This document shows, piece by piece, positions 998-48,664 of a stretch of 64,000 nt of DNA. Location of the stretch: positions 1-64,000 of the forward strand of contig JALLLT010000006.1 of the NCBI GenBank assembly GCA_025266875.1, given 5' to 3'. This stretch comes from Fennellomyces sp. T-0311 (taxonomy: Eukaryota; Mucoromycota; Mucoromycetes; Mucorales; Lichtheimiaceae). The position numbers were made by a program, and so were the translations under genes. Numbering within the stretch: the first letter of the stretch is position 1; each line of letters begins with the position of its first letter. The notes under the pieces were generated by a model that saw only the letters and a list, made by a program, of their open reading frames with translations, was not told the DNA's origin and made no database searches.

Positions 998-1120
998 GAG
1001 TCAGGTTTTGAGTACGAGTATTCGAGTTTTTCGGGTATTTGACGAGTACGAGTCAACTTTTTTCAGGTCGAGTACGAGTCAGTAGATACCCGACTCAAAA
1101 ACCCGAATGGAGAACCCTAG
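998..1120. repeat. Transposon-end-like block with CGAGTACGAGT repeats
   Basis: The block contains several copies of the short motif CGAGTACGAGT and CGGGTATTTG-like words, and ends in GAACCCTAG. Clustered short subterminal repeats of this kind are typical of hAT-type transposon ends. A similar CGAGTCGAGTATCGAG block occurs at 24895-24980, next to an hAT transposase relic. No partner end or target duplication was found here. Confidence 0.4.
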
Positions 1121-1251
1121 AAACGAGTGATGTCTATCGTTATGGAGCCGGTCCATAACGGATAATGATAAGCTAAGTGATAGCTGTTGACACGCGTTCA
1201 TGATAACGTCTATGACAATATGCCAGATATGGAAGATATGTCTGCATGAGT

Positions 1252-1455
1252 GAGTTTTACCAAAAAGGAAAGTAAGAGATAACCGTTCCGAGATACTGAT
1301 CAGTGATTATGTTCATGTTGGATACAACACTTGGGCCAATGCTCAAGATCGCAAGACAATTTCTGCACGCATAGAACGCAAAGCTGGTTTTCCGTCATGT
1401 GTTGGTTTTGTGGATGGTACCCACATTAACTTTTCACAACGACCAACCCAACAAG
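1252..1455 (+). pseudogene. PIF/Harbinger (HARBI1-like) transposase, 5' fragment
   Basis: The frame reads without a stop from about 1252 and contains GFPSCVGFVDGTHINF, the region around the first catalytic aspartate of DDE_Tnp_4 transposases. It stops making sense exactly where CACAGTGG begins at 1456. The rest of the same protein resumes at 13245 with GEVYFNRKSQYAMN, after the duplicated AAG at 13242-13244. Joining the two sides with one AAG keeps the frame and gives the expected family spacing between the VDGT and YFNRK motifs. The N-terminal part before 1252 is missing or unrecognisable. The pieces are thus one transposase gene split by the CMC element. Confidence 0.8.
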
Positions 1456-2161
1456 CACAGTGGGAAAACTTTCCGGTTCGGCTCTGTCTTGACACGTAGT
1501 GTTATCGATTTATCCGGCCTCGGCCATATTTCCTTTAGTTTAAGAACACAATGTCAGCCCATCATAATATTCCACTCATTATATTACACTTTAGTTTATG
1601 AACTTGAGGGCTAGTTTTACATTTTAGCTTTCCTGCCAACCTCTCCCCCATTTTTAAGCTCTATCTATGCTATGTCTAGCGGAGAATCGGTCTTCCAGAC
1701 AAGTCTTTTACACCTTATGATGCAATCCTTACCTAACCGACCTTATTTCTTCTTCCGTTCATCGATCTAAGGAAATTAGCGCATATTAATAGCGCAATAT
1801 ATATATGAAAACAATACGGAAAATAAAAGGAAAACAAGAGTATTCTCTGGGCAAAAAAAATTTGAAGAACCCAATCAAGGAGAAATTGTGAGGATTCAAA
1901 CATTACGCGTGACAGTCTTCCCCAGTGAAATCCAGTAAAGTGTGGTGATTACACGGTAAGCCCTGGTTATGCTCCGTTCGAACCAGGCTTCACGGAGAAG
2001 TACCTAAAGTATACGGAGTTTTACTAGAATTTTCGGTAATACTAAGGTTTTTTCATGTTCTCAGTGATTCATGGTTCTTCTACGTAAGTACCAGTCCATT
2101 TTATGAAGCAAAACGGAGGAATACGGGTAGTAACCGATCTAATATAATGGCGTTTAATCTT

Positions 2162-5100
2162 TCAAATTCCTGTGGTTACTCCTAAATCTATGCTATTTTG
2201 CAACATGTTTTCGTACACGTAGTAGAACTGATTTTGTACAGTTGGTGATTCCAAGACTCCTACAGCACAATTGATACAAGTAGCATCGCAAACGTACAAG
2301 CGCCCTTCAGATCCAAACGTGCCGTTACCACGCGGGTAACCATAGTCGGATAGTTCTGTTTTAGTCGCAACGCGCACCAGGCATAGAATTCTTTCATCAG
2401 CTACGGTGTAACGAAATTTCTCGGCCCCTCTTCATTTATGCTACCTTCCCCTTTTTTGGCACGCACTTGACCTTTGTATTGACCTTCATTTAACTATATG
2501 GTGCATCTGCACTTGATGTATCTCCTTTTTCTCGTTCTGATCTTCCCAAGCTACCGACCTATTCTATTATATGGTGCATCTGCACTTTCGTTTATCTTCT
2601 TCCGCACTCGGATCTCTTGCTAGTTGTAATTCCTATCTAACCCACCTTTTACTTCCGGCATAGCCCGATGTATCCACAGTCAGCATATCCACAGAAACAT
2701 ATAAATACCCTTGTTGAATCAAATGAAATAAAGCAGTTAACTTGACCTCAATTATCTTGATCATACCTTTCAAAGCCCAAGACAGGAGCTTATATCTGTA
2801 TTTGATTAACTCACCTTTTCTATTTCTCTATATTTCAACCTACTTTGTGGACCCTGTTTCACACAGAATTACCTTACACAAACAATTTCCTTTTACAACA
2901 ACGGTACACAATGAGCTTATACCAGATTGTGAGCCCCGTGCTACTTACCAGCATATTTGTGAGAGAAAATGAGTATAATTTTTTCAAAGAAAGCTTTTTT
3001 TACATCCTTTCCAGTTACATTGGCGAAATGTGCATACTTGTCGACAGGCAACGTGAGCTTCACATACGTTCCATGTTTTTTAGTACAAAGTGGTAAGCAG
3101 CAGTCATAAGTTGCATCCCGAAGATAAAGTCGTCTTCCAACTGTGATATCATTGCAAAGTTTAGGTACATTGGCCGGTGACAGATGTCGTACACGTCCCC
3201 AAAACCTTCTGAGATAATACATAAGGTTAATTTCTGGATAGTCATAGATTGACATTGACGATAAATGCGGCCCCCAAATTTCTGGTGCACCTGGATAGGT
3301 GTCAACAAGGTGTACTGTAACATTTGATTTTGAAGATTTTGGGCACTGTGCTGACTTGTCATCAACTCTATCCACGTACTGCTGTGCTGCTACTGCAATT
3401 AGCTTATTCCCAGCATTGACACCTGGAGCTTGAGTAGATTTAATCTTGCGATCAAAAACACCAACAGCTCTTTCCATGCATCTTGTTCCATATCCATGCA
3501 AAGGGCCAAATTGACGAATTATCTCCGGAATATGTCGGAGGTAATGCTGGTTGACGGTATACTGGTGCACAGGAAGGTTCACACGTGCGAATTCATGCCA
3601 TCTCTTTATACACCTATTAATCGTTTGTAAGTACATATAAACGTTCAATTTAATGATACTGAAAATTCTTCATACATGGTAATTTGATCTATTGTGTCGC
3701 TTGTTTGCTTCCGCGAAAGCGAAAGTGCACACGCCTTGGCAAGATTGGCTAGTGCTTGAATCGCTGTGTCATTACAGCTATGACTATGTCGCTCAAGTTG
3801 ATCAATGACTATGGTAGGTACAACGTATATAAGCAAGTCAATATAGTCCACTGCACGTGTATCTCGCATTCGAGTCAGAACATCTAACAGTAGCTATTAT
3901 AAATACAGAGACGCGACTTTTTCTCTTACTATAAGCATGGAATGAGCACTCACCTGTGATCCTTCCATCAAACGTTGCCGGCCATGATACCATTGATTTC
4001 TTGATTGTCTTGCTGACGGAAGCTTGTTGCGATTTGAACATTAAATATGGCGTGTTTAAGATAGGATTGCTGATCATCGCCCACACTTGAGGTTCCACAT
4101 TACATCCAAAGATATGCATTTCATCGAGGCCAAATGAGAATGGTCCTTGGAAAGAGTCAAGGCGAGCGAATGGAGATGGTGATTTAATGTTATGAGCCTA
4201 CGTGTGAAGTATAATATACTAAATGCCTTGGCGTAAATAACATATATAATTGACTTTTCTAAATACTTACTATATCACTGTACTTGTAGTTTCCTTTGGT
4301 TCGTAGAGGGTCGAGATCTATATGTCCAGGAAAATAACGGCCATATCGTGGGCGAGCATTTCCATTGCTTTTTCCAGCCTTTCGGCGATTAAAAGAATTG
4401 GCACTTTCTGATCGAACGGATTCTATTAAGCAAATTCGGCAACTGAAGGTAGACTGATGACCGCTATGATGTGCAAGTGAAGCAGTCCCAGGTATGTCGC
4501 TAGTAGCCAGGATCAAGTGTGCTTTAAATGATCTTACTTCATCATCATCACATAGAACATCCATTTCAACCGTTTCCAAAACCCAAAGTTCGTTCAATAA
4601 AGGTGCAAGGAAAGAGTCCAAGTTGCCACCCTTGGATGTTGTTGGAATAATACATACCTGGATCATGTTTTGATCACGATAACTAATAAAAGCGGTAGTT
4701 TTGGATTTAATGTAAAGCAACAAAAGCACTCATTGTAAGCGCTAATTACCATTGATGTGGATCGAAGTTTAAAACGACCAAATGCACAATAGTCATCGAT
4801 ACAGTGCTGTGAATAAAAGGTTGAAAGCCGTCGACATATAGAATCAGGCCAATATCATGAGGCCCCCATTCTTGCGCGCAATTCAAAGCCTTGCCATGAA
4901 ATATGTCACTGATTACACCGGTGTGCCGCATATTTTTCGGTGATTGTAATTTTTTCTCGTCGCTTCATTTGAAATCAATGACGCAAGCTGGTCCGAAAGA
5001 GGTAGATATTGCATAGTAAAGTACGACTTCTTTTGAACTGCACCGCGGTATCTTGCTTTTGACATTTCAGATTGGGGCAGTTACTAGCTTCATCATCATC

Positions 5101-5910
5101 TAGGAAGAGATGACATCCACTACTGCAAATATCATATTCTTGCTTGGCTACCGGATACAGTGATGTGAGAAGGTTCTCTGTCAGGTATGGTGAAAGGAGA
5201 GTGATGAATTCTTGGCATGGGTTGGTTATATCTAAGCGGTAATATAATCAGAAAATACTCACTTAACATAGATATAAATATATGAACTTACCGAAACCTC
5301 CGCGTAACGTTATAACCCAATTAACAAATTTTACCAATCGTTCGTATGCTGAACGTGGTATATTAAAGTCTTCAATGACCTTAAGAAGATCCAAACTGAG
5401 TAACTCCGATGTGGAGAGGTGTGGGATTTCGGTATCGATGAACACCTCCTTTCGCTCAGTGCCATCTGCCAATGACGTGTTGCCTGCTGTGCTTTGCGGA
5501 CTCGTGCTTTCGAGCTGGGATAGCGTGGAATCTTGATTCTCGTCAGTCGGGCAGATGAAGCTGGTTGGATCTTGATCATCTATATCAAAATCGTAGCTGT
5601 CATCATGATACATGTCGTAATGGCAAGTATCTTCATTGTTGTAGCCCTCACTGATTGTTGCAGTGGCGTCTACGGTGGAATTTATAATGGAGCGATGCTT
5701 TGTTATCCTATTATAGTTTATGCCCAAGGTACGCTTTCTTATACTTGGATTTGATTGATTCGAGTAGGGCACGTCAGCTGTATCCACACGTTCACGCGTT
5801 CTCGTCTGGTTCTCCACGACTTTCCAGTGGTTTTTTTCGAAACAACTAGTTTCGTGGCTCTTTAACTTTCTTTTAGTGTATGATCCACCACAGTAGCGAC
5901 ACCTCTTCAT
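2162..5910 (-). pseudogene. Tnp2/Plavaka-type transposase of the CMC element
   Basis: The gene starts at MKRCRYCGG (5910), a CxxC zinc-finger-like N-terminus followed by an acidic linker. The exon at about 5224-4930 has a CSSGCHLF motif. The next part (4931-4746) has HTGVISDIFHGK and LILYVDGFQPF, a hallmark block of Tnp2/Plavaka transposases. The part at 4662-4259 contains LDSFLAPLLNELW and HSGHQSTFSCRIC, typical of the catalytic core. The stretch at 4119-3838 has FGLDEMHIFGCN, and 3630-2950 holds the C-terminal core. The exon at 2420-2162 joins in frame through a GTAAGT donor at about 2950 and a TAG acceptor near 2420. At least two frame changes, near 5075 and near 4935, are not explained by obvious introns, so this copy is probably inactive. 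Exon limits are approximate. Confidence 0.72.
2421..2950 (-). other. Unusually long (about 530 bp) intron of the CMC transposase
   Basis: Other introns in the window are mostly 45-80 bp. This one holds LTR-promoter-like signals on the plus strand (TATAAATA near 2701, AATAAAG near 2727). It also has a direct repeat of 20 identical bases at 2495-2514 and 2568-2587. It may contain an old retroelement insertion, but I could not define ends or a target duplication. Confidence 0.4.
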
Positions 5911-5975
5911 CTTGTAAGTCGAGTTTAAAAGTGGAGGCTGATCAGGATTGTTTTTTTTATTTACATGGTATGTAA

Positions 5976-6120
5976 GTCCACCGCCGCAGCATTCTGATAA
6001 CGTAAGTATAAACAGGTTATTGGTACTCCACCGCCGCAGCATTCTACACGGTAAGTACGAACGGAACTCCACTGCCGCAGCATTCTGCACAATAAGTACG
6101 AACAACACTCCATCGCCGCT
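5976..6120. repeat. Minisatellite between the two divergent CMC genes
   Basis: Four tandem units start at about 5976, 6026, 6067 and 6108. Each begins CTCCACCGCCGCAGCATTC or a close variant, with periods of about 50, 41 and 41 bp. Three units contain GTAAGTA-like or ATAAGTA-like words on the plus strand. The array lies between the start of the minus-strand transposase (5910) and the plus-strand companion ORF (6177), so it overlaps the presumed shared promoter or 5' leader. Confidence 0.75.
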
Positions 6121-6176
6121 GCATTTGTCTTCATCTCTTTCTATTTTCTCATTCTTTGCTTATCCCAAGTATAACC

Positions 6177-6878
6177 ATGCCACCCAAGAATGCCAGGAAG
6201 CCCAACATTAAAGAAGATATTGTGGAACTGCAAAGCCAGTTGAAGGCTCTGAATGAAGATGTCCAGCTTATTTATGGGACGGTCAACGTTATCGAATCCG
6301 CGATAAAGAAGATATTGGAAGCGCAAGAAGAGCAGCATGAAAAAACTATGTCAATGTTCAGCGATTTCATTGAAAAATCAAGACCGACTACAGCCATTGG
6401 TGAAAGTGGCGGTTGCAATGAAACTAACCACACACCAAGCACAAAAAAGGTTATACCAGCGCCTCGTGTTTACAAAGAAGTTGAAGGCAAAACCAAGGGT
6501 TTTACTCTAAAGATTGTCAAGGATCATATTGTACAATATGTCATCAAGGAAGCTAATAAAGAACTGACCGATCCTGAGGCAGAAGCACAGTACCAAACGA
6601 TGCACGATGAGCTTAACATCGCTCTAAACGTACTGGAGTCTCGAGTCAAGAAGGCAATTACTGACACGACGTCTGAAGAAGATCGATATGAATACCAGTC
6701 AGACGAGTCCATTGTCGATATGAAAGGTTACACATGGGGATCACGAAGTTTGGCGAGGTTTCGTGATATTGCGATCAGGAGCTTTGAGGATATGGTACTG
6801 GAAGCAACAGGAGTTGATCTTTCAGTATGCGAAAGCCACTGGGCTTCATCGCACATGTTAGAAGAAACATGGAACAAC
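6177..6878 (+). pseudogene. CMC companion ORF, 5' part (interrupted)
   Basis: The ATG at 6177 opens a frame starting MPPKNARKPN. The protein has a coiled-coil-like segment at residues 10-60 (EDIVELQSQLKALNEDVQL), a charged middle part and a segment with TGVDLSVCESHW near the break. The frame runs into a retrotransposon LTR at 6879 and resumes at 12638 after the ACAAC duplication. The restored ORF would be 304 residues with a highly acidic C-terminus. I recognise no known family. Its divergent position 0.27 kb from the transposase start, inside the same transposon, suggests an accessory or DNA-binding function, which is inference only. Confidence 0.7.
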
Positions 6879-7272
6879 TGTCGTATCCTGACATACCAGT
6901 CATCCATTGTCTACAGACCTTTCCATCTCAGCCTTTGTTACATCCGTTCCTTTATTTCGACATCAACAACCGCACAGTTATCTATTGGCCTGTTCACTGG
7001 CTTGTGTGTCAGTGAGACCTTGATCTGGGTTCAGACTTCAAGAAGGACCATTCACGTTAACTCAGTCTCTGCATGATTATCCGCTCCTTCGTAATAAGGC
7101 AGTATGGTCATTAGGGATTACGGCGATAACACGGATTCGGCTCTGATAGAAAAGCATTCACCTTCTCCGTCCCGACTCATCATCATTATAAATAGAGAGT
7201 AGTTCTCTTCAATAAAACATTATCTTATTTTTGGTCTCGTCATTTGAAGCTTTCCAATTGAGCGATACCACA
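6879..7272 (+). repeat. 5' LTR of the chromovirus
   Basis: Begins TGTCGTATCC and ends GATACCACA. It contains a TATA box (ATTATAAATAG near 7187-7197) and an AATAAAAC signal near 7211, which fit a U3-R-U5 layout. It is identical to 12239-12632. Confidence 0.95.
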
Positions 7273-7352
7273 TTTTTTTTGACGAATTCTTTTGAACTCT
7301 ACTCTAAACCTTTTTTACATACCTTACCTTACCTTTTCTTCCACCTCATATC

Positions 7353-10300
7353 ATGTCTGAACATTCCACGAACTCCATTTCGGTTCAAGAAGATGCTGGT
7401 CAAGGCATTGCCGATCTGAGAGCGGAGTTGGCTCGTGTAACCCGCGAATTTACCAATGCCGTTGCTTCCGGGAATGGTAATGCTCAAGAACTTCAGGCCC
7501 ACATGGTTCGGTTGCAAGAAGCCATCTCCTTTGCCGCTGCTGCCCAAGCTGTTTTCGCTCCTGCTGTAGCCGCAGCTTCCGTTCCTGATTGTTTGGGTCG
7601 TGCACCGTCTAACCTGCCATGCCTGCAATGGTCTGGTTATGTGTGGAAACCATCGGCGTCCACTTTTCCCACTTTAGACGATTGTCTTACCAAGTTTGAA
7701 GATGTCGTTTATAGTGATGGCTGGGATATTGACAAGTCTTGGCCACGATTCCTTCCTATGTTGCTCTCCCCTGAGCATCGTTCTTGGTTTGCGGTTAACC
7801 TTGAACCGTACACCGATAGGCCCTGGTCCTTTGCTCGCTCCCGTCTGGTCGAAGATCTGGATGTTAATGAAGCTGATCGTGTAGCGGATTTGACAGATCA
7901 GTTGATGAGTGTACAAATGCGTTCGTCGGAGACTGTTGCGCTTTTCACCGCCCGCTTTGAGAAGCTCCGCCGCGATGCCAAAGCCGATGACAACTTCGTT
8001 ATGGTGAACAAGTATATCGATGCCCTCTTACCTGACCTTCAAGACCGGGTGTATACTGCTCGTGCTGGTTTGCCGTCGCACCAGAAGAACACTTTGGCTG
8101 GTATTTCCTCCCTCGCTCTCGCTCTGGAGAAGGGCGTCAATAAGGCTCGCTCCCGCAAGGCCAATCGGACTCGGGACTCCGCTCCTTCCTCTTTGGGGGA
8201 TGATTCCTCCTCTGCTGCCGCTTCTTCCGGTGGTTCGTCGTCTCGTAGAGATGGCAAACGCCGCCGTGTGGAGAGACCCTCGCAATTCTGCGAGCTTCAC
8301 GGGAATGGTAGTCATGACACCAAGGACTGCAAGGTACGAGCTAAGGTTCTAGCTCAAAGTTCTTCGGTTGGTTCGAGTGCAAGCATGCACAACCCCTTCC
8401 GGGCCTCGTCTTCTGCTGGCTCATCTTCGGGCTCATCTTCGGGCTCTTCTTCGGGTTCGTCAGGACCCTCATCTGCATCCTCATCTTCCTCTTCTTCTGC
8501 TGGTGCCTCGAGACGTGGCAATACCTGTCACAAGTGTGGTGCTCCTTGGCGACATGGGCACAAGTGCCAAACATTGGCGATCCGTTCGTCTGATGTTGTG
8601 GAGTCCGAGCCTCCTGCTCCTCCTAAGAAGAAGGATGATGATGACGACGATTTGGACATCGTCATGGGTGATCTGGACCTCGCGGTTGGTCCCTGTACAG
8701 ATTGTAAGTCTACACAGTCTTCACATGAGTTTTCTTTCGAGAATACACGCTCATATTACATTCCTGTTTATCTAGAAAAACACAAGTTCCTTGCGCTCCT
8801 TGATCCTGGCGCGACACATAGCACTGTTTCCTCGTCGCTGTGTAAGCAAATGGGTTGGCAAGTGGAGCCTCGGCCTGGTCATGTGCATACTGCACACAAA
8901 GGGACTCTTGTACCTAGATTAGGAATTACAAAGAATAAATTACTTATTTCTTGCAATGACAAAGCTATCTACCATCACTTTGAAGTGTTCGACTTACATG
9001 GTAATGCTGATATTGCCATTGGCAATGACATCAAACATCACTTTGGTATATACATTGGCAATCTTCCTTATTGTTGGCACAGACCAGGAGTTCCCAGAGA
9101 TCCTCCTACGATGCCAGATGAGTATATCCCAAATGCCAGTCCAGCGGGTAGCAAGGAACAGCAGCAATCGTTTCTCGATGCTCTTGCCCCATACCTGGAT
9201 GCTAACGCGGCTATACCAAAGGATGCCTATTGTACGATGCCAGAAGCAGTGGTACGTTTACCCACTCCTGCAGGGAAAGTTGCATACCGCTCGCCATACC
9301 GAGTTGCAGATGCACTGAAACCAGTTCTTCGGAAACAGCTGGACGAATGGTTAGAAGCTGGGGTGATCGCAGTATCTCCTACTTACACACCATTCAACAG
9401 TGGCTTGACTTGTGTCCCCAAACGCGATCCAGTCTCTGGCGAACCCATTGCGTATCGTTGGTGTATGGACGTACGGCACATCAATGTCATGCTCGATGAC
9501 TACAACTTCCCTATGCGCGATATACCTTCCATCTTTTCCTCATTATCTGGTAATACGGTATACAGTGTCTGTGATGTGACCGCAGCTTTCAATACCATGC
9601 CAATAGCAGAAGAGGATCAATTCAAGCTCGGCATGATTGTCGATAAGACTTGCTATATCTGGAAGCGTGCTTGTTTTGGATTGAAGATCCTTCCTCAACA
9701 ATGGAGTGCTTTGCTGACTAAGTTGACGCACGATCTCCCATTTGTGCAAACCTATCTCGATGATTGCATTGTGGCGTCGCCAGATCTGGAGACACATAAG
9801 TTGCACGTCATTGAACTGGTGAAAAGATTGACATCCGTGAACCTTACCTTGAACAGGAAGAAGTGTCACTTTGCACAAAAGTGTGTGTACTTGTTGGGAT
9901 TCCAGATCTCGTCTCTTGGTGTCGCACTTGACCCTCGAAAGGTGTCCAACGTGCTTGATTGGCCTAGACCTCAGACAGGTCGCGATGTGCAGAGCTTTCT
10001 TGGCCTGTGCAATTTCTTCCGCTCGTTCCTACCACGTGCAGCAGAATTGATGCGTCCACTTGATCAGTTACGAAACGCTCGCTCTCTGGATGGTCTCTGG
10101 ACTATCAAACACACCGAGGCATTCGAACGATTGAAGGAAGCACTTTCACGCGCACCTGTTTTAAGCAACGTGGATATGAAGCATGAGCTTCGTCTTGCTA
10201 CAGACGCTAGTTCAACTTCCATTGGAGGAATGCTGTTCCAAGTCATTAACAATCAATATCGTTACATTGGTTTCGTGGCTCGAGCACTCACCTCTAGTGA

Positions 10301-12098
10301 ATCCCGATATGGAACTACAAAGCGTGAATTGTTGTCAATCGTCTACTGTCTACAGAAATGGCGTCAGTGGTTGTGGGGTACACGTAAACCTTTCACGGTT
10401 TACACCGACCATCGCGCGCTTACGTTTCTTCATACCCAACCGGTTGCAAACCAGATGATTATCAATTGGTACGATGTCATTGGCGATTATTCGTTTCGAG
10501 TAGCGCACATTCCTGGCATTATGAATCTGCTGCCTGATTACTTGAGTCGTCTGTTCTCGCGTCCGTTGGAAGAAAAAGACAAAGACCCTGCCACGAGTGG
10601 CGATGCGCCTTCTTCAACAGACGCGCAGTCACCTGCGTTACGTATGAGTCAAGTGACCAATACTGTTGATATGATCACCCCTCCGAATGAGGCACGATCC
10701 GGACTTCTCGAAGAAGCTCACCTTCTTGGACATTTCGGTGCCGATGCTATTGTCAACGCACTTCACGATGACGGTCTTCACTGGACTAACATTCGCAAGG
10801 ATGCACTGAACACAGTGGCCAGATGCCCCGATTGCCAACGCTTCAACATCGGGAAACATGGTTACCATCCTTTGAAACACGTGAAAGCTGACAGACCCGG
10901 AGATCATTGGGCAATCGACCTTGGCGACTTCAATGTTGTCAGTGACCGTGGTAATGCTTATTTACTTGTCATGCTGGATATATTCACACGTTTCGTGGTG
11001 TTACGAGCTATACCTGACAAATCAGCTTCCACCATCGCGTATACTTTAGTTGACGTGTTCTCTTTGCTGGGCTATCCTATGGTCCTTACGCATGACTGGG
11101 GTACAGAGTTTCACAACTCTTTATGCAAACTTCTTGCTAAAGCCTCTGGTTACGAGCTACGCTTATCTTCAAAGTATCATCCGCGCGGGAATGGTGCCGC
11201 CGAGAATGCTGTAGGAATTGCAAAGCGCACTATCATCAAGCGATTACAAGGAAAGAACACTGAATGGGATCTTTTTGTGTCCAGTACACAAATGGCGATG
11301 AATTGTCGTCATACCAGATTGCATGGTTCTCGTCCTTTCAGCGTGATGCTTGGCCGTAAGCCTAATGGTTTCCAAGACTATACCGGTGTTCAGCTCGGAT
11401 CAGCCTCTTCATCCTCTAAGGATGCTAAGGCCCTGATGCAACACATCGAGGATTGGGAAAAGGTTGTCATTCCTGCTATCAGCGCTCGCATGGATGCTGT
11501 ACGAGCTATTGAGAAAAGTAAGTTCGACAGTCAGAACCGCATTATTGATGGTTTCCCTATCGGCAGTAAGGTCATGATCAAGAACATTGCAAGAGCGGCT
11601 AAGACCGATCCTCTTTATGTTGGCCCTTACACTGTCTATGGTATTACCAAAGGGGGTAGTTATGTTCTTTCTGACACTACTGGGGAATTGCTGTCAAGAA
11701 ACGTTCCACCTTCGCACATCAAGCAAATCTCACCGGATTCCACCGTACAATCCGACGACACATACGAGATTCTTGCAGTCGTGGATCACAAACTTGACAG
11801 TAACAACCAATACCTATACCGGGTACGTTGGAAGGGATATGATGATCCTAATGAAGATACTTGGGAACCTACCGATCACTTCAATAGCTTGGATCTCATC
11901 CAACAATATTGGAGTCGACGTGCGACCGCTCCTACTGCCAATAACAAACGTAGACGTGCTGATGGGACCAGTACAAAATCGCGAGCTAACAGCTTCTCCA
12001 TGACTTCTGCTCACAGTCATATAGAAACACGCTCGTCAAAGCGCAGACGTGTTGCCGCAGCCAACACTGCCTCCAGTATAAAATCAAAACGCGCTTAG
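7353..12098 (+). CDS. Gag-Pol polyprotein of the chromovirus (1581 aa)
   Basis: One uninterrupted frame encodes both Gag and Pol with no frameshift between them. Gag capsid-like sequence fills residues 60-260. A CELHGNGSH motif near 312 and CHKCGAPWRHGHKC near 391 look like zinc knuckles and flank a Ser/Gly repeat linker. The protease motif is LLDPGATHS near 487. Reverse transcriptase has CDVTAAF and YLDD (near 800). RNase H has LATDAS and YTDHRAL. Integrase has a His-His-Cys-Cys zinc domain (HLLGHF to CPDC, 1122-1160) and catalytic AIDLGDF, THDWGTEF and GAAENAV. A chromodomain (RVRWKGYDDPNEDTWEP, about 1470-1521) ends the protein and probably directs integration to particular chromatin. The ATG at 7353 is the first one after the 5' LTR. 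Confidence 0.96.
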   Translation: MSEHSTNSISVQEDAGQGIADLRAELARVTREFTNAVASGNGNAQELQAHMVRLQEAISFAAAAQAVFAPAVAAASVPDCLGRAPSNLPCLQWSGYVWKPSASTFPTLDDCLTKFEDVVYSDGWDIDKSWPRFLPMLLSPEHRSWFAVNLEPYTDRPWSFARSRLVEDLDVNEADRVADLTDQLMSVQMRSSETVALFTARFEKLRRDAKADDNFVMVNKYIDALLPDLQDRVYTARAGLPSHQKNTLAGISSLALALEKGVNKARSRKANRTRDSAPSSLGDDSSSAAASSGGSSSRRDGKRRRVERPSQFCELHGNGSHDTKDCKVRAKVLAQSSSVGSSASMHNPFRASSSAGSSSGSSSGSSSGSSGPSSASSSSSSSAGASRRGNTCHKCGAPWRHGHKCQTLAIRSSDVVESEPPAPPKKKDDDDDDLDIVMGDLDLAVGPCTDCKSTQSSHEFSFENTRSYYIPVYLEKHKFLALLDPGATHSTVSSSLCKQMGWQVEPRPGHVHTAHKGTLVPRLGITKNKLLISCNDKAIYHHFEVFDLHGNADIAIGNDIKHHFGIYIGNLPYCWHRPGVPRDPPTMPDEYIPNASPAGSKEQQQSFLDALAPYLDANAAIPKDAYCTMPEAVVRLPTPAGKVAYRSPYRVADALKPVLRKQLDEWLEAGVIAVSPTYTPFNSGLTCVPKRDPVSGEPIAYRWCMDVRHINVMLDDYNFPMRDIPSIFSSLSGNTVYSVCDVTAAFNTMPIAEEDQFKLGMIVDKTCYIWKRACFGLKILPQQWSALLTKLTHDLPFVQTYLDDCIVASPDLETHKLHVIELVKRLTSVNLTLNRKKCHFAQKCVYLLGFQISSLGVALDPRKVSNVLDWPRPQTGRDVQSFLGLCNFFRSFLPRAAELMRPLDQLRNARSLDGLWTIKHTEAFERLKEALSRAPVLSNVDMKHELRLATDASSTSIGGMLFQVINNQYRYIGFVARALTSSESRYGTTKRELLSIVYCLQKWRQWLWGTRKPFTVYTDHRALTFLHTQPVANQMIINWYDVIGDYSFRVAHIPGIMNLLPDYLSRLFSRPLEEKDKDPATSGDAPSSTDAQSPALRMSQVTNTVDMITPPNEARSGLLEEAHLLGHFGADAIVNALHDDGLHWTNIRKDALNTVARCPDCQRFNIGKHGYHPLKHVKADRPGDHWAIDLGDFNVVSDRGNAYLLVMLDIFTRFVVLRAIPDKSASTIAYTLVDVFSLLGYPMVLTHDWGTEFHNSLCKLLAKASGYELRLSSKYHPRGNGAAENAVGIAKRTIIKRLQGKNTEWDLFVSSTQMAMNCRHTRLHGSRPFSVMLGRKPNGFQDYTGVQLGSASSSSKDAKALMQHIEDWEKVVIPAISARMDAVRAIEKSKFDSQNRIIDGFPIGSKVMIKNIARAAKTDPLYVGPYTVYGITKGGSYVLSDTTGELLSRNVPPSHIKQISPDSTVQSDDTYEILAVVDHKLDSNNQYLYRVRWKGYDDPNEDTWEPTDHFNSLDLIQQYWSRRATAPTANNKRRRADGTSTKSRANSFSMTSAHSHIETRSSKRRRVAAANTASSIKSKRA

Positions 12099-12226
12099 AC
12101 ATGACTTTTTTGCCCATCATTTTTCCCACTGGGTTTTTTTTTCCGGGTTTTTCTAGTCATTGGTATGCTGTTTATCCACAAGCGTAGGGACCTACAACAA
12201 TCCTTTTTCATACGGTTGTTTCGTCT

Positions 12227-12238
12227 GGAGGGGGGCAA
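12227..12238 (+). other. Polypurine tract for plus-strand priming
   Basis: GGAGGGGGGCAA directly abuts the 3' LTR start TGTCG at 12239. This is the position and composition expected of the retroelement polypurine tract. Confidence 0.85.
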
Positions 12239-12632
12239 TGTCGTATCCTGACATACCAGTCATCCATTGTCTACAGACCTTTCCATCTCAGCCTTTGTTA
12301 CATCCGTTCCTTTATTTCGACATCAACAACCGCACAGTTATCTATTGGCCTGTTCACTGGCTTGTGTGTCAGTGAGACCTTGATCTGGGTTCAGACTTCA
12401 AGAAGGACCATTCACGTTAACTCAGTCTCTGCATGATTATCCGCTCCTTCGTAATAAGGCAGTATGGTCATTAGGGATTACGGCGATAACACGGATTCGG
12501 CTCTGATAGAAAAGCATTCACCTTCTCCGTCCCGACTCATCATCATTATAAATAGAGAGTAGTTCTCTTCAATAAAACATTATCTTATTTTTGGTCTCGT
12601 CATTTGAAGCTTTCCAATTGAGCGATACCACA
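12239..12632 (+). repeat. 3' LTR of the chromovirus
   Basis: Identical to the 5' LTR in length and sequence. It is followed by the target duplication ACAAC at 12633-12637. Confidence 0.95.
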
Positions 12633-12637
12633 ACAAC

Positions 12638-12850
12638 AGATGCAAGACGAAGTCCCCAACCAAGGCCAGCAAGTGCAAGCATGATGGGAGGGGCTCCAAG
12701 AGCCAAAAGCATCCAGAAAGGCATGTATGGTTTGAGGAGCCTGAATCGGAAGGCGATAACGAGGATGACTATCTGAATGTCGCGGAGAGTACAGATGACG
12801 AGGAGAGAGTCAGTGACAATGAGTGTGTCGATGACGAGAGTGACGAGTAA
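12638..12850 (+). pseudogene. CMC companion ORF, 3' part (interrupted)
   Basis: Directly after the duplicated ACAAC the frame of the 6177 ORF continues for 70 codons to TAA at 12848-12850. It encodes a basic stretch and then a Glu/Asp-rich tail with repeated DDE and DNE words. Polyadenylation-like AATAAA follows near 12981. Removal of the retrotransposon and one ACAAC gives 915 nt without a stop, which supports a single ancestral ORF. Confidence 0.75.
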
Positions 12851-13241
12851 TATCCACGTTTGAAGATAACACAGTCGAAAGCACAAGAGCTCGGATGCGA
12901 TAATAATGTCCCTGATCTGTAGTATTTTTTTAAATGAATGTAACTGTAGATAGTATATGTACTATGTGGTAGTGTTATTTGAATAAAAATATCATATATT
13001 ATAGCGGAAAGCTACTTTATACTCTTTATACTAGTTCTATGTATTATAGTAAACATCAGTTCTATAGCTGTGGCACCCGTACATATTTCGGTACGGTTCT
13101 TCCCCGTTTTCACAGGTTCCGTTTTGTTTAGTTTTCCCTGGTTCAGTTTTGTTCAGGTAAAGTGACCAAATCTACGTGGTTTTTACCGAACCGGTGAAAA
13201 CCGATTTCAACCACGATTTACCAGCCGTATTTTCCACTGTG

Positions 13242-13828
13242 AAGGCGAAGTTTACTTCAATCGCAAATCGCAGTATGCTATGAACGTTCAAGTCATTTGT
13301 GACGACAAGTGCCTGATAAGAAATATCTGTTGCGGATGCCCAGGATCTATGAGCGACGCCAGTGTATTCAGTCAGCACTCTCTTCCAGGATTATATCCTA
13401 ACAATTATTTTTCTGAAAACGAGTACTTGATTGGTGACTCAGGATATGGGCTTACCACGTGTCTTATGACACCATATGGTAGCCCAGCAGTCAAGTCAAA
13501 CAAGGACAATGAAGTATTTAACTTCCAACATGCATCAGCTCGAGTGGCAGTCGAAAATACCATTGGCATACTGAAAGGAAGATGGCGCTTTCTAAAGCAC
13601 GTCCCTTTGCAGTTGAGAGACAAAGCAGAGATAGGTAAGTTGAACAGAATCATTGTTGTGACATGCATTCTTCATAACTATCTCTTGCGGCGAAATGATG
13701 AATGGGATCTGGATACTGAAAAAGAGAATGAAAGGAATGAACATAGTACATCATTACCTTCGTCAGATGCAGAAGGAAAACGTGAACGCTTAAAAAACAT
13801 TGTAGTAAAGTTTGTATCTAGCCAATAA
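13242..13828 (+). pseudogene. PIF/Harbinger transposase, 3' fragment
   Basis: The frame begins after the right end of the CMC element with GEVYFNRKSQYAMN and ends at TAA 13826-13828. It contains GSMSDASVF (second catalytic Asp region), GDSGYGL and VAVENTIGILKGRWRFL (catalytic Glu), all characteristic of DDE_Tnp_4/HARBI1 proteins. It continues the 5' fragment at 1252-1455. The 3' end lies 23 bp from the stop of the convergent SANT gene, the same convergent layout as in the intact Harbinger at 18626-22028. Confidence 0.87.
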
Positions 13829-13851
13829 AGCTTTTTATTTAGTTGAAAGTA

Positions 13852-15451
13852 TCAACGACTGTCATACATGTCTTCAATTATTTCTTTCGCTTCATTCTTA
13901 GCCATTCCAAGCTTCAGCAACTGAATGAAATGCTCGACTTTTGATGCGCATCTTTTCTCTAATATAAGTTTCTTCTTTACATCAAGTTTTTGGCGCTCAA
14001 GCTTAATGCGATCCTTTTCTATGGCGTAGTCTAATTTGCGCCTCTCCACCTGATGAGCTGCATAAACTGCAGTGAAGTTTTTACCAGTAGGTACATTATC
14101 TTCATCATCACCTTCATCCTCTTCCCCATTTGAGCTTTCTTCTGTGTCTCCTGCACTACTTTCTTCAGGTATTGGTGCTGGAGTTGGTGCTGGGTATCGC
14201 TCTAAGTACCAGTCAATTACGTCCTCAATGTTTTCTTGAGTTACTTCTTCATATTGTTCGTAACTATCTTCATGTTGCTCGTAGCTATCTTCCAGTTGCT
14301 CGTAGCTATCAGACAGTAACTCGTAGCTTTCAAACTGTGGCTCGTCGATATCGGGTTGTTCCAAAGCAATGAAGGAAGCTGGCTGATCGTTCATAGGAGC
14401 AGCTTCAGTGTCGGCTACTGTCACTGTCGTTGTTGATGCATTTGCTGAAGCTGGAGCAAATGTAGCTACATGCGTAGTGAAAGATCTGGGCACACCAGCA
14501 TGGAGGACAGTGCTTGGGTTGATGTTCTCCCTATCACCAAAGATAGGATCCATCTCGTAATAGTAGTAGCATAAAGCATTCATCTTGTCGACAATAGTAT
14601 GAATGCCTTTCTTACGTTCTTCATCGGTAACCTCTCTTCCATATCCAGAACTATTCAGCAAGTTACGCGCAGCAGTGTATTGCTTTTTGTAGCTTTCAAA
14701 GCGGCTTTTCGTCCTTTGAGCGTCCCAGTCAACACCAGTTGCCTCTTTGATTGCCTTGCTCATTTCACTGAATGCAGCTATCTTTCTCATTCTCTTGATC
14801 AACCCTGGTGGTCCCGCATTGCATGCACCCGAGTGCATTTCGAAGTTTTTAATGACTGATAGCCAATCCACCATCACTTTACACACTGTGATATTCTCAA
14901 ATAAGATCAGACGTGAAAGTGCAAGACCGAATTAAAGATCTTTTTATTGATGACAAACTACTCAGATATTTATATTGTTGAAGCGGTCGGGATGAACGCT
15001 TCTTGGTGATGTTCCAAATCCATGTTTAGGCGGCGATATAGGACGAGCGTCCTGTTAAGTAACTTATCCATGTTTCGAGTAAACTCGATGAGTCCTTTGA
15101 TGTCCTAATCTAGATCAAAGTAGTTTTGGACAGATGTTGGCAGAAACTGGACCAATGGATGACGTACGGTTGGTGCCGTCGAAAGAACGAATAGAATGGA
15201 TGTGTCTGAGACTGAAACAAGAAGGCATTCTCTGTGGGAAGGTATAGGATACGACACACACTTTCTTGGGCGTAGAAACTTTCGAACCCTTATAAAGATT
15301 AAAAGACAAAATTAGAGTACACCATACTTTTGCTTAGTGATATATTTGCTAAGAGACATATTCATACCACTCTATTAAGCGCTTCTATAACAGTATCGGT
15401 AAGTTCTTCAGTTTCATCATTGGTTGCATTAATTTTTTTTGGTCTAGCCAT
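13852..15451 (-). pseudogene. Harbinger SANT/Myb-like accessory gene, interrupted by a solo LTR
   Basis: Exon 1 is 15451-15368 (start MARPKKINATND). An intron follows at 15367-15289, and exon 2 begins GSKVSTPKKV at 15288. The LTR at 14887-15256 cuts exon 2 and duplicates CACAC. Skipping it with one CACAC leaves a continuous 381-codon frame to 13852. The N-terminal half has a DWL...W-type SANT/MADF-like helix pattern (TGVDWDAQRTKSRFESYKKQY). A heptad-like DSYEQ repeat lies in the middle, and a basic, helical C-terminus follows (KLERQKLDVKKKL). In PIF/Harbinger elements this second protein helps nuclear import and DNA binding of the transposase. The start resembles MPRPKK of the intact copy at 21309. 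Confidence 0.78.
14887..15256 (-). repeat. Solo LTR in the SANT gene
   Basis: On the minus strand the 370-bp unit starts TGTCGTATCC and ends AATATCACA. It has TATAAATA and AATAAAA in the order expected of an LTR. The 5-bp duplication CACAC is present at 14882-14886 and 15257-15261. No internal retroelement sequence remains, so it arose by LTR-LTR recombination. Confidence 0.9.
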
Positions 15452-15671
15452 GTCGAAAACAAATAATAACAAAAGCCTAAATTTTTTGACGTGTCTGTGC
15501 AAAATAGGATCGCGTAGTTCAATCTCAGAAACACAAGTCACAATTTCAACAAAAGCGCTTTTATTCATTAAAAAGCCGGTGCAGGAGACGCTTTTAATTT
15601 TCGCTTTTATTCGGAGTAAAAGCACTTTTCTGGCCTCAAAAAAGTGAAAATTTGCAACTGTGAAACCTCCT

Positions 15672-15859
15672 AATGACTAAGTTAACCTGAATGGTCCCTC
15701 TTGAAGTCTGAACCTAGATCAGATCTCACTGACGCACAAGCCAGTGAACGGACCAATAGATAACTGTGCGGTTGTTAATGTGGAAATAAAGGAACGGATG
15801 TAACAAAAGCTGAGATGGAAAGGCATGTAGACAATGGATGGCTGGTATGTCAGGATATG
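15672..15859 (-). repeat. Truncated LTR fragment related to the chromovirus LTR
   Basis: Reverse-complemented, this stretch matches about the first 185 bases of the 394-bp LTR with scattered substitutions and small gaps. The remainder of the LTR is absent. It is an older relative of the intact element. Confidence 0.88.
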
Positions 15860-16460
15860 AAAGGCTGTTCTTCTCAGCAGCTTTTCTTCAAGCGATATGC
15901 GTAACGATGTACATTTTGCTTGATGTGTCACTATAGCTCTACACTTTTTCAAAATGGCTTGCTTTTGTATCATATGAAGTGCATTTCAACTTTAAGTATG
16001 ACTTTTAAAATTGTGAAACAAAGTACATCATTAGCTTAAGGATAGCCTGAATTTAACGCTTCGATGCACCAACAGTAAATTCCAGATAAACTATAGATAA
16101 AGCATCACTTTATGACTCCCACTAACCAGTTTGTTTTCTGGGACATAAAATGATACTGGTGAAATCGATGTTGCCATATATCCCCTATGTAACTAATTTG
16201 TATACAGAACTATATATTTCTTAATAAAATGTATATCACTCAAGCTACAAGATATTGTAGAAGTTTCAATGAATGGGAAATAACAACAGGGGGTGCAGGG
16301 GCCTCCCCGCCGGGGGTTTAGGGGCAGGCCCCCAACGAGCCGCTGGAAATGGAGCATGAAGGTATTGACACGAAGCATAGCAGAGGGGCTCAACTCCAGA
16401 TGTGCGTAATGGACTAAGGCTCGTATTTTATAATAAATAAAGGTAAGTGATGAAACTCAA
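15860..16460. other. No gene recognised
   Basis: AT-rich sequence with one GC-rich patch near 16290-16345. The small ORFs lack domain signals. It lies between LTR fragments and is probably repeat-derived. Confidence 0.5.
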
Positions 16461-16913
16461 GTAATAACTGATTTATTTCATATGTTAAATCATCACTTTA
16501 AATAATAAAAGCTTATTCTTGAGAGGTTGGATCATTGACATGATTGTAAGGCACATGGACCTCTGTGGTAACTAGAGTTATGTGGGTTTCACTAAGTGAA
16601 GTGTTTGGTGTGGTTATGTGTGTGTGCGGACGAAGTAATTCGTGAGACTCTTTATAGGAGAGATTTATTCTGGAAAAGAGAGAGAAAAACACAAATTGAA
16701 AATAGTCTATTCTTAAGCTACCACATGTTACACCAGATACAACTCATTTGTCTCCCGATACCACTGGATACGACACTAAGATAGGCAAGGTTATTATGAT
16801 GAACACATGTCAAGACAAGGATGTGGCTATAGATCGGAAAATTAAAGTAACCCGTTGTCAATAAGCAATAAGGGTGAATAATGCATAAGCTATAAACATG
16901 TTGTAGATGTAGT
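16461..16913 (-). repeat. Dispersed repeat R1, copy 2
   Basis: Matches 1-262 on both sides of a 179-bp insertion. Left part 16461-16596 corresponds to 1-156, and right part 16776-16913 resumes the match. R1 copy 1 therefore shows the unoccupied state of the insertion site. Confidence 0.85.
16597..16775 (-). repeat. Solo short LTR inside R1 copy 2
   Basis: On the minus strand it begins TGTCGTATCCAGTGGTATCG and ends CACTTCA, 179 bp long. CTAAG is duplicated at 16592-16596 and 16776-16780. The empty site, with a single CTAAG, is seen in R1 copy 1. A second copy lies at 24213-24392. Confidence 0.93.
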
Positions 16914-18149
16914 GAGAGAGTTATTAGAGATAGAATAGGTGGCAAGAATAGAATTCGTTGAGAATCTGAATAATTGTCTGTCCTTTATTATGGATGAACT
17001 CTCTCTCTTATATACCTTTTACTGGAGATTCTAATATCCGTTCCTGGATAAATGATACTTGGTCGAAGACATATCGGGTTGCGTGTTCATCTTATGTTTT
17101 ACCGACGACGGCAGATATCGACTCCATGTACTCTGTGATATGTGCATGTCCTGTAGAACATCATTCAGCTTTCTTGAAACCGGTGTAAGGTAATACCGTT
17201 CATATCTTAGTCATCAATACTCTTCCAGAGTGTTCGTCTGATGGAATGTGCTAGAATGGATGTTTGACCGATCTCCATTGTGTGCATACATGTAGTGGTT
17301 CACCACAGTAGATACAACATCTCACACCACAGTGAGTTGGTGCAATGATAACTTTATAAAACAAAAAAAAAGAGGATAACAACAGTTGTGGTGAAACAAC
17401 CACAAATGATAATAATAGAAGATATTTCTTATTGGATAACACATATCGGTTCAACATCATCACGAAGTGTACTTACATAGTAACTTGTCTACATGGATTA
17501 AAAATTACACCTTATGAACAAATGGGATAAACTTAACAGGACATAGAATTGACCCCAATATAGCAATGGTGTGTTGTGGGGTTGATAAATAGTAAGGTGA
17601 GGCAATAAAGACGAATCCTTTGAGACACAGATTTATTTCTGAAAATCAGAACAACTTGCTTTCTATTATTACGATGGTTCTTTTATACTCGATCGCTTCC
17701 TTCGATTCATATGACAGATTTGCATCATAAATTCTCTTAGTACCTCTTAGTACTTCTTAGTGTCTCTTAGTGTCTTTTAGTACGATCGAAGTAACGGAGT
17801 ATTGACAGATCGACGCTAACAAATTTGGTAACACATAGGTGACATATTCTCAATTTGGACTTCTTTATCGGACTTAGTCCTTGGACACCACAAATGGGGT
17901 CATTACACTGCGTGGCCGACGTCAAAGGTATTCTCAGATCCGCATGATCAGAACAAAGGAAAGGACCCTATACGTCCTTCATCCATTCAGATAATTCTGA
18001 AAATGAAACACTATCTAAACTGCCATCGCTGATTCAATATACAAAAAGATATAAAAGCATAGAGCGTTGCATTCAATAAAGCATATCTGGAAGTTCAAAG
18101 ATACTTTTATAAGTCTCTTTTCATTCTTTGTACCGTTGATTCACTTTAA
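16914..18149. other. Repeat-rich stretch without genes
   Basis: Contains R2 copy 1 (17120-17307). It also has a region at about 17572-17835 that starts TG and ends CA and might be another LTR, although no matching target duplication was found. An LTR-promoter-like block lies near 18050-18080 (GATATAAAAGC then CAATAAAGC). No credible ORF is present. Confidence 0.5.
17120..17307. repeat. Dispersed repeat R2, copy 1
   Basis: Matches 23690-23875 over about 187 bp, including the shared words CATCAATACTCTTCCAGAG and GTGCTAGAATGGATGTTTG. Confidence 0.88.
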
Positions 18150-18625: not shown

Positions 18626-18829
18626 AGGGGGTCTCAAACCTCAATTTTTTAAAAAAAAACTTTTTGTTCCCAACTTTGAGCGGATGTTGAATGTAGCCAA
18701 TCATATTATAGATAATTGTTCACAACTTTGAGATCCTTTTTTTTTTTGGCAGCGGATGTTTTCAAATGTTTTGATCTCAAATTAGGACAGGCCCATACAT
18801 TTTCCCTCTCTACTTTAAACTTGTTGAAT

Positions 18830-20191
18830 ATGCCTAACCGTTCAGACCGTCAAGAAGCTCTCGAATTTCTCGAAAATCAATTGCTTGCCGAAGCTTTGAT
18901 CGAATCCATCTTTGACAGCAGTGATGACAACAGTTCTGAGAGCACTGACAGCGAGTATGGGCATTCTGACAACGAGGCAGATATCGACAAGGACATAGGC
19001 AGTCAGAAAAGCGACAGTGACATGGACGATGAAGATGATGTGATTGGCGACATTACGTCGACACACACTGTATACGCCATAATCGAAAGCTCGCGATATA
19101 TGATACCCAAGTGTAAACGATCGATACCGATCTCGAACTTTATGACAGAAGTTACGTTCGCTCTTCCAGAAAGGCAGTTTAAACAGCACGCACGTATGTC
19201 GAAGCAGGCGTTTTATGCGATTCTAGATCTTATTCAAAATGACAAGGTCTTTCACAATAATTCCAACAATTCTCAAGCACCAGTAATGCACCAATTTATT
19301 ATTGCATTATATCGGTTTGGAATGTACGGCAATGCTGCATCAACTGGACAAGTAGCTACACTTTTCGGTGTCGGTGCTGGCACTGTTGATCTTTATACAA
19401 ACCGTGTAATTGTGGCGCTACTCCGCATACGTAAACATGTGGTTTATTGGCCAATGGAAGCAGAGAAAGTCCAACTCAAGGAAGACAACCAAAGCATCGC
19501 AGGATTTCCCAATTGCATCGGTCATGTAGACGGTACTGGTATTGTTCTTGCCTTTTCACCTGCTGAAAACGGTGAACAGTACTTTACCCGGAAGTCTCAG
19601 TATGCACTGGCTGCAATGCTCGTTGTCGACGCCAACTTGAGGATTCGTTTTGCAGATTGTGGTTTCGTTGGATCCGTCCATGATACTCGTGTTTGGCGCA
19701 ACAGTGACCTTGCCCTTCATCCAGAGAAATATTTCCAAGGCGATGAGTATCTTCTTGGCGATAAGGGATACCCTTTATGCAAGGAAATTATTACACCGTA
19801 TAAGGAACCAAGAGCAAGCCAAGGCACAAACCCAAAGTTCAACTACTATCTGCCCACAACACGGGTCCGCGTCGAGAATACCATTGGTGTTCTCAAAGGG
19901 CGCTTCCAAAGCTTACGTGGACTACGGATCTTGATTGGCAAAGGAAAAAGCAGCAAGGTCGACCATGCAAGAGCTGTTCTATGGTTTAACGCATGTGTCG
20001 TGCTTCACAACCTGCTTGTCGATGATGAAGATTCTCTGCAATTCCGGAATGAAGATGTTGTGAACGAGCAGAGGTTGGACGAAGAAGCAAACCGATCATA
20101 TGAAGCACGCGACTTTGGACAATTCTTCGATACTCCAGAAGTCAAACGCGAGTACATCAAAAGCAGAGTATTAGAGTATATGAATGAATAA
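18830..20191 (+). CDS. HARBI1-like DDE_Tnp_4 transposase (453 aa)
   Basis: The start at MPNRSDRQEALEFLE (18830) is preferred over an in-frame upstream non-AUG extension because the upstream part is low-complexity leader. The N-terminus is acidic (residues 25-75). A helix-turn-helix-like region around 160-190 (GMYGNAASTGQVATLFGVGAGTV) precedes the catalytic core. Catalytic residues lie in CIGHVDGTGI (Asp), GSVHDTRVWRNSDL (Asp) and RVENTIGVLKGRF (Glu). The frame is intact. It acts in the nucleus to cut and paste the element, with the convergent SANT protein as probable partner. Confidence 0.93.
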   Translation: MPNRSDRQEALEFLENQLLAEALIESIFDSSDDNSSESTDSEYGHSDNEADIDKDIGSQKSDSDMDDEDDVIGDITSTHTVYAIIESSRYMIPKCKRSIPISNFMTEVTFALPERQFKQHARMSKQAFYAILDLIQNDKVFHNNSNNSQAPVMHQFIIALYRFGMYGNAASTGQVATLFGVGAGTVDLYTNRVIVALLRIRKHVVYWPMEAEKVQLKEDNQSIAGFPNCIGHVDGTGIVLAFSPAENGEQYFTRKSQYALAAMLVVDANLRIRFADCGFVGSVHDTRVWRNSDLALHPEKYFQGDEYLLGDKGYPLCKEIITPYKEPRASQGTNPKFNYYLPTTRVRVENTIGVLKGRFQSLRGLRILIGKGKSSKVDHARAVLWFNACVVLHNLLVDDEDSLQFRNEDVVNEQRLDEEANRSYEARDFGQFFDTPEVKREYIKSRVLEYMNE

Positions 20192-20260
20192 ACACTTAGA
20201 TTCTGATTTGCAGGTTTTTGATGACTCTAATAACAGCTTTGTAAAGCAAAATTTATTTAT

Positions 20261-21309
20261 TTATTCGTCACGTCCCTTCTTTTGCTTCAGTTTCTCGAGC
20301 TCAATCTGAAGCATAAGAGATCGTTCTTGAGACTCTTGCATCCTTGCATGGATCTGGTCTCGAAGCAATTGCATTTTTGCCGACTCGGTCTCTGCCCGCT
20401 GCCTCATCTTTTCCCGTTCCATTTCCATCTTCTCCTTCTGGATCTCCATCCGCATTTCGCCAAGACGAACGAGGGACTCGGCAACAGTCGTTGGTGTAGC
20501 TTTGCGTTTCTTCGACGAACGTCGTGCTATTGAACCGTCTACTGTCGTCTGATCGGGATTATCAGCCACGACTTCCACAGCCGATTGGTCGTCATGGCCA
20601 TCAATAGTGTGGCCGTGGATGCGAGCGACAGTGCTCGCCACACGTTGCTCAATATCCTGCTCAGCATCGGTAGTTGGCTCACTGGCTGGTGCATCAAGCA
20701 GAATCTGTGCTGCCTCCTCATCGAGATCATTGTTGTCTGTCGAAGTGCGGTAGGGGGGGTTTGACTTTGCGCCTTTGTATGCAAATTTGTTGTATTCCTC
20801 ATAACAAGACATAATCTCCTTGATCTTGTCTAGTATGTTAAAGAAGTTCATATTAGTAGATGAAACTAATGGTTTGAATACTTGCGCCTTCACTTACCGT
20901 TTGTAGTAGCAGGAACAGCTTTATTACCATTATCATCATCACTGTCGATACCTTCACCAGTAGCACGGATGAAGTCCTTGACCTTTATATAAGCTTGTTC
21001 CAATGCCTTGACTTTTGAACTGACTTGGCTACCGTTGATATCAACGCCCTTTGCTCGCATTACTGCAGCGATATCATTGCAAACCATCTTTTTCGATTTT
21101 CCTCCATTCTTCTGTCCACCTTGATATGCCCAGTATAGTCGTCCGGCATTATCTCCCAATACCTCCAGCAGAATCTGAAGGCTGGACACAGTCCATGAAA
21201 AGTATGTCGATGGGCTGGGTTCTTCTCGATTCGCTACAGAGGCAGTTGGCAATTGCATAGAGCTAACGTTGTGCTCGTTGATTGAGGCGTTCTTCTTAGG
21301 TCTGGGCAT
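20261..21309 (-). CDS. Harbinger SANT/Myb-like accessory protein (326 aa)
   Basis: Two exons, 21309-20898 and 20829-20261, are joined across a 68-bp intron (GTAAGT donor, TACTAG acceptor). Splicing keeps the frame (TTNDKIKEIM). The start is MPRPKKNASINEHN. The first exon has a trihelix/SANT-like segment with three Trp/aromatic-rich helices (FSWTVSSLQILLEVLGDN, LYWAYQGG). A Lys/Arg-rich nuclear signal and a long C-terminal coiled coil (LGEMRMEIQKEKMEMEREK) follow. In this superfamily such a protein assists transposase nuclear entry and end binding. Its stop is 70 bp from the transposase stop. Confidence 0.88.
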
Positions 21310-27009: not shown

Positions 27010-33664
<6,655 letters not shown>

Positions 33665-48527: not shown

Positions 48528-48664
48528 TGGGGCAGCCACACAAACAACAGTAAGGAAAGAAGAAAGGAGAAAGAATGCGAAAAAGTCTCCCCTTAACTTC
48601 ATTCGGGGTAATGCATATTACAATCGATCACTCACGTGCTACATGACTATCACTAGTGTAACCT

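Follow-up and report, generated by a model that had tools for sequence, protein, structure and literature searches.

How does a stretch of DNA come about in which the genes of one transposon after another break off and resume far away, and can the succession of events still be read from it? The question is raised by the left end of contig C139 (1,362,703 bases) of the mould Fennellomyces sp. T-0311 (Mucorales, Lichtheimiaceae), whose first 64 kb, starting at contig base 1, form the window, that is, the whole stretch analysed here. Relatives were sought in the genome of the same strain (45.6 Mb, 182 contigs), domains were named by Pfam profiles, and all junctions and target duplications were read base by base. 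We hold, with a probability of about 0.96, that the locus is a nest of mobile elements which arose through one insertion after another, with a target duplication for each. A preliminary description had proposed that a PIF/Harbinger-type transposase is cut at AAG by a CMC/EnSpm (CACTA-like) element, that a companion open reading frame (ORF) of the latter is cut at ACAAC by a long terminal repeat (LTR) retrotransposon, and that the SANT gene of the Harbinger element is cut at CACAC by a solo LTR, here called LTR B. All three insertions are borne out: the duplication is exact at each site, removal of the insert together with one duplication restores the frame of each host ORF, and the closest relatives in the genome (four of four per site) span the junction uninterrupted, none with the insert. 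Inserts that are missing from uninterrupted relatives at all three sites are thus not native parts there.

The outer host is the right-hand part of a two-gene Harbinger element. A query across its AAG junction matched 118 places, the two pieces of the window included (150 of 169 candidates scored), and the four closest other relatives (96, 95, 93 and 89% identity) all cross the junction. At the DNA level, the four close relatives lead straight from 1455 to 13242, and likewise from 14886 to 15257, with no insert between, and their aligned pieces have in common at these points only the duplicated bases plus one or two chance bases. Behind the AAG junction the transposase frame stays open for 194 codons, while the other two frames stop after 12 and 18; in the SANT gene, which has 344 open codons once LTR B and one duplication are taken out, a single one of the nine frame and offset combinations tried both lacks stops up to the junction and stays open for long behind it. 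The 3' transposase piece covers DDE_Tnp_4 profile positions 19-158 (E 6.8e-31), and the uninterrupted relative L009, about 2.8 kb long, covers positions 1-158 (E 2e-35). The Myb/SANT-like gene scores 18.6 bits with Myb_DNA-bind_3 in the window and 21.4 bits in L009, the curated cut-off being 23.6, and probably holds an intron near 15290-15366, as read by eye. The right terminal inverted repeat (TIR), given as reverse complement, is AGGAGGTTTCACAGTTGCAAA, and TIRs with a 3-bp duplication are present in both relatives whose two ends were read (ATT in L009, AGT in L010).

The left edge calls for a correction. The preliminary description let Harbinger start near 1252, while 1119-1329 belongs, with 99% identity, to a young LTR family, F, and Harbinger relatives match the window only from 1330, where the visible element begins; its 5' part and left TIR are not within the window. 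In L009 some 660 further bases run leftward from the equivalent of 1330 up to the TIR and code the N-terminal part of a 423-codon frame. LTR F ends in CA exactly at the Harbinger start, so that another insertion is the likeliest reading: an LTR-F element was probably inserted in the 5' part of Harbinger. The family occurs at no fewer than 39 other places among the matches listed (97-99% identity, 40 of 93 candidates scored), with three pairs about 5.57 kb apart. A deletion at the left side of Harbinger, instead of an insertion, may also have produced this edge, the far side of LTR F not being in the window. To the left of LTR F, two more repeats occupy the contig end (274-1120 and 1-276), the outermost being found at at least 26 other places among the matches listed (96-98%).

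The CMC element that cuts Harbinger was recognised by CAC...GTG ends with a 3-bp duplication, as PMC12730594 describes them for EnSpm, and this combination was confirmed in the window copy (AAG) and in a relative of about 5.1 kb on contig C2 (ATA). One of its transposase exons, which were searched unspliced, matches tnp2 (Transposase_21) with 26.3 bits (E 5.1e-6; cut-off 28.6). Candidates for the expected C(2)C and H(3-4)H between the second D and the last E are CRIC and HYLRH, which can be made out in the translated exons. The element is like fungal CMC/EnSpm elements in its ends, its 3-bp duplication and, probably, a tnp2-type transposase, and unlike them in a head-to-head second gene, the companion, for which the searches made gave no recognisable relative beyond this genome.

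It is this companion gene that the third insertion has cut. Resumed at 12638, its frame offers 70 open codons against 45 and 14 in the other frames; the four closest companion and CMC relatives all run from 6878 to 12638 at the DNA level without the insert, and a natural uninterrupted copy of 304 codons lies at L040:1501-2412. The insert is a full-length chromovirus (family A) with a gag-pol frame at 7308-12098, searched in three pieces, and with TG...CA LTRs identical at 394/394 bases. It resembles Ty3-type chromoviruses in having reverse transcriptase, RNase H, integrase and a C-terminal chromodomain (E 4.7e-10) in that order in one frame, a 5-bp duplication and a polypurine stretch before the 3' LTR, and differs just behind the 5' LTR, where, in families A and B alike, a TGG primer-binding start is lacking and a T run with a common CGAATTC motif stands instead (7273-7300 in A, L073 in B).

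Real as its three insertions are, the preliminary description missed further layers, namely C and D, two presumed solo LTRs inside the CMC element, and the LTR floor beneath Harbinger. For both C and D the C2 relative of the CMC element is an empty site; 7 of 9 other matches of the C repeat and 13 of 65 of the D repeat span its full length, and from their ends and duplications the two are best taken as solo LTRs. As to the floor, all seven relatives that were fetched continue through a complete LTR (at least 40 places among the matches listed), which places the right end of Harbinger within an older LTR of LTR-A-like type that differs by about 9% from the young LTR of chromovirus A. The 3-bp flank of Harbinger on this side is AAT, versus AAA in the floor relatives L084 and L085, so that a target duplication is plausible and unproven. 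An LTR type common to the floor and the youngest layer suggests a lineage active before and after both DNA transposons. Further right, the floor is tentatively also interrupted at 16437-17408 by a repeat some 0.97 kb long, which is bounded by a 7-bp AT-rich repeat and holds LTR E; the latter splits a repeat whose uninterrupted counterpart stands at 1-267: a filled and an empty site in one window. Insertion G lies in the floor repeat, and relatives L082 and L084 are without it, reading AATGC at the site; like E, it is presumably an LTR, judging from ends and duplication. It is worth adding that a second Harbinger-type element lies nearby (18716-21342), with an open 491-codon frame on the plus strand matching DDE_Tnp_4 and two further minus-strand frames without Pfam match.

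In what order did the layers arrive? Containment puts the floor LTR first and Harbinger second; CMC, LTR B and (probably) LTR F follow as a third tier, in any mutual order, and within CMC a fourth tier is made up of LTR C, LTR D and chromovirus A, again in any mutual order. The proposed succession of Harbinger, CMC and chromovirus, with LTR B after Harbinger, hence stands, and divergence agrees with it, weakly for the first two. Divergence runs with nesting. Three-point estimates for the window branch, worked by hand from pairwise differences and with a range that depends on the relatives chosen, are 1.9-2.4% for Harbinger (over 13242-14881) and 1.6-2.0% for CMC; LTR B differs at 5/370 from its nearest copies, whose own two LTRs are identical (as in a family B pair about 5.3 kb apart on C158), and the LTRs of chromovirus A differ from each other at 0/394. 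The insertions had been called datable; what is obtained, there being no clock, is their relative order and upper bounds on age, and no dates. This relative chronology is itself checkable, as the three sites and two more inside CMC have empty counterparts in the same genome, from which the succession of several waves of transposons in this mucoralean mould becomes readable without a clock.

The reconstruction that we favour runs as follows. The floor is an old repeat carrying an LTR-A-like LTR, in which the two-gene Harbinger element inserted, as its single remaining flank suggests. A two-gene CMC/EnSpm element then struck the Harbinger transposase, LTR B the SANT gene and, probably, an LTR-F element the 5' part of Harbinger. 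Solo LTRs arise by recombination between the two LTRs of an element, and this is presumably how LTR B reached its solo state. The CMC element was in turn struck by LTR C and LTR D, both now presumably solo, and by the full-length chromovirus cutting the companion gene. Junctions, duplications, empty sites and containment are read directly from the DNA; cut-and-paste or integrase transposition and the loss of LTR interiors are what we infer from them.

Several points weigh against this history. The left end of Harbinger is absent, so that its own target duplication is uncheckable, its right flank differs at 1 of 3 bases from the floor relatives, and the far side of LTR F is unseen. The SANT (Myb_DNA-bind_3) and tnp2 scores lie under the curated Pfam cut-offs; duplications at both ends of CMC were checked in only two copies, those of the window and C2, as L070 (C110) yielded no CMC left end and the copy on C79 is cut at the left; the same C2 relative is the single source of the empty sites of LTR C and LTR D. 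The divergence ranges of Harbinger and CMC touch, and the step from Harbinger to CMC therefore rests on containment. One may also ask whether the assembly has misjoined repeats from different places, a thought encouraged by the repetitive layers and by a window that begins at a contig end. Misjoins are not expected to yield exact duplications at both ends of each element together with restored host frames, and at all three sites the relatives of the host elements are collinear to the left and to the right; exact duplications flank seven two-sided insertions (CMC and LTRs A, B, C, D, E and G), and we regard such an artefact as very improbable. Even less credit is due to the idea that the inserts are native cargo and that one compound transposon moves as a unit: DNA transposons can pick up other genes, but the insert is at the site in none of the four close Harbinger and none of the four close CMC relatives, and the insert families (A, B, C, D, F and CMC) also occur elsewhere in the genome.

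Successive insertion being retained, targeted nesting could have acted on top of it, the chromodomain of the chromovirus steering it into a transposon island. Some chromoviruses are established to be steered to heterochromatin by their chromodomain, chromovirus A has the domain, and three of five families lie close to another family more often than expected: family B (8/35 versus 3.4 expected, p 0.016), Harbinger (7/26 versus 2.7, p 0.013) and CMC (7/32 versus 3.1, p 0.030). For chromovirus A itself the excess is weak (6/33 versus 3.2, p 0.09), and LTR D has none (4/35 versus 3.2, p 0.40). The test is crude, having been made among the matches listed (27 of the 118 Harbinger rows), with the window's places excluded, those within 9 kb merged and contig ends ignored, and we consider such steering rather unlikely.

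Nested transposons are textbook knowledge and such stacks are common, which makes the locus a clean example, not a new phenomenon. Its Harbinger element is like other PIF/Harbinger elements in its DDE_Tnp_4 transposase, its second gene, probably of Myb/SANT-like type, and, in the relatives, TIRs and 3-bp duplications; it is unlike them in that the duplications are ATT and AGT, not the TWA usually quoted, and in that the window copy is broken, lacking its 5' part in the window. Clusters of insertions inside insertions, in plants and other genomes, are reported in PMC6911290; the present nest is alike in this and unlike in its mucoralean host and its two DNA-transposon layers among LTR elements.

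The less ordinary part of this otherwise ordinary nest is the companion gene: the cut gene led us to a conserved, unnamed second gene of CMC elements. A search of the genome with it gave 43 matches; leaving the window aside, the closest four are 97, 97 and 96% identical (234 residues) and 82% identical (residues 1-188). Loci were available for 30 of the 43, which amount to 25 distinct places including the window, five loci repeating a neighbour's place; the transposase N-terminus was matched at 29 of these 30 loci (24 of 25 places; exception L050), always head-to-head, the weakest matches having E of about 1e-4 to 1e-5. With this arrangement, the companion and the zinc-finger/tnp2 transposase could use one promoter region. 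The ratio of nonsynonymous to synonymous change (dN/dS) is about 0.19 between families (C2 versus C161, 0.26/1.34, near saturation), and 0.15 (window versus C2) and 0.38 (C96 versus C145), both on few changes; the gene is apparently under purifying selection. No convincing match emerged among Pfam families or solved structures, and single-sequence and profile searches of 5.8 billion proteins, which detect only relatives with short exact words in common and did not return the diverged copies of the same genome, gave nothing beyond four Fennellomyces proteins and the protein of the window itself. The predicted model has a long helix (11-67), a confident domain (about 90-238) and a disordered tail. 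It is tempting, and at present tentative, to see here a new kind of accessory transposition protein, with a likely coiled-coil helix, an acidic tail and a conserved domain that is mostly helical, its gene standing head-to-head with that of the transposase, and so far without recognisable relative outside this genome; its position and make-up hint that it may be a TnpA-type DNA-binding or transposase-regulating partner.

Table 1. Mobile-element features at the left end of the window, by position
Feature	Position	Strand	Remarks
LTR family F, part	1119-1329	-	211 bp of ~415 bp whole; adjoins Harbinger at 1330
PIF/Harbinger-type element, right-hand part only	1330-15671	+	pieces 1330-1455, 13242-14886, 15257-15671; collinear with four relatives
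Harbinger transposase, 5' piece	1330-1455	+	holds first aspartate of DDE core (GFVDGTH)
CMC/EnSpm (CACTA-like) element	1456-13241		ends CACAGTGG...CCACTGTG; AAG at 1453-1455 and 13242-13244
Presumed solo LTR C	1490-1914		425 bp, TG...CA; 4-bp duplication GTCT both sides
Presumed solo LTR D	2407-2900		494 bp, TG...CA; 4-bp duplication ACGG both sides
CMC transposase region	2941-6159	-	several exons, unspliced; N-terminal zinc-finger-like motif; tnp2 match in 4262-4729
CMC companion ORF, first part	6177-6878	+	234 codons, cut at ACAAC, resumes 12638
Full-length Ty3-type chromovirus, family A	6879-12632	+	LTRs 6879-7272, 12239-12632; ACAAC at 6874-6878, 12633-12637
CMC companion ORF, last part	12638-12850	+	acidic tail
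Harbinger transposase, 3' piece	13242-13828	+	begins with AAG duplication 13242-13244; DDE_Tnp_4 match
Harbinger Myb/SANT-like gene	13852-15451	-	split by solo LTR B; Pfam score below curated cut-off
Solo LTR B	14887-15256	-	370 bp, TG...CA, within SANT gene; CACAC at 14882-14886 and 15257-15261
Floor: older repeat	15672-16436	-	includes first ~190 bp of LTR-A-like LTR (15675-15863)
Presumed solo LTR E	16597-16775	- (judged from its GGATACGACA end)	179 bp, TG...CA; duplication CTAAG
Solo-LTR-like insertion G	17570-17892		323 bp, TG...CA; duplication AATGG; in floor repeat

Beside the nest lies a host gene, an AROM-type multidomain gene of the shikimate pathway (28347-33664), with matches to EPSP synthase, shikimate kinase, dehydroquinase and shikimate dehydrogenase at 29468-33661. 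Further on, several tandem gene copies, about 68% alike at the DNA level, occupy 46026-58268, and the one exon tested among them (48668-49153) matches AMP-binding_C.

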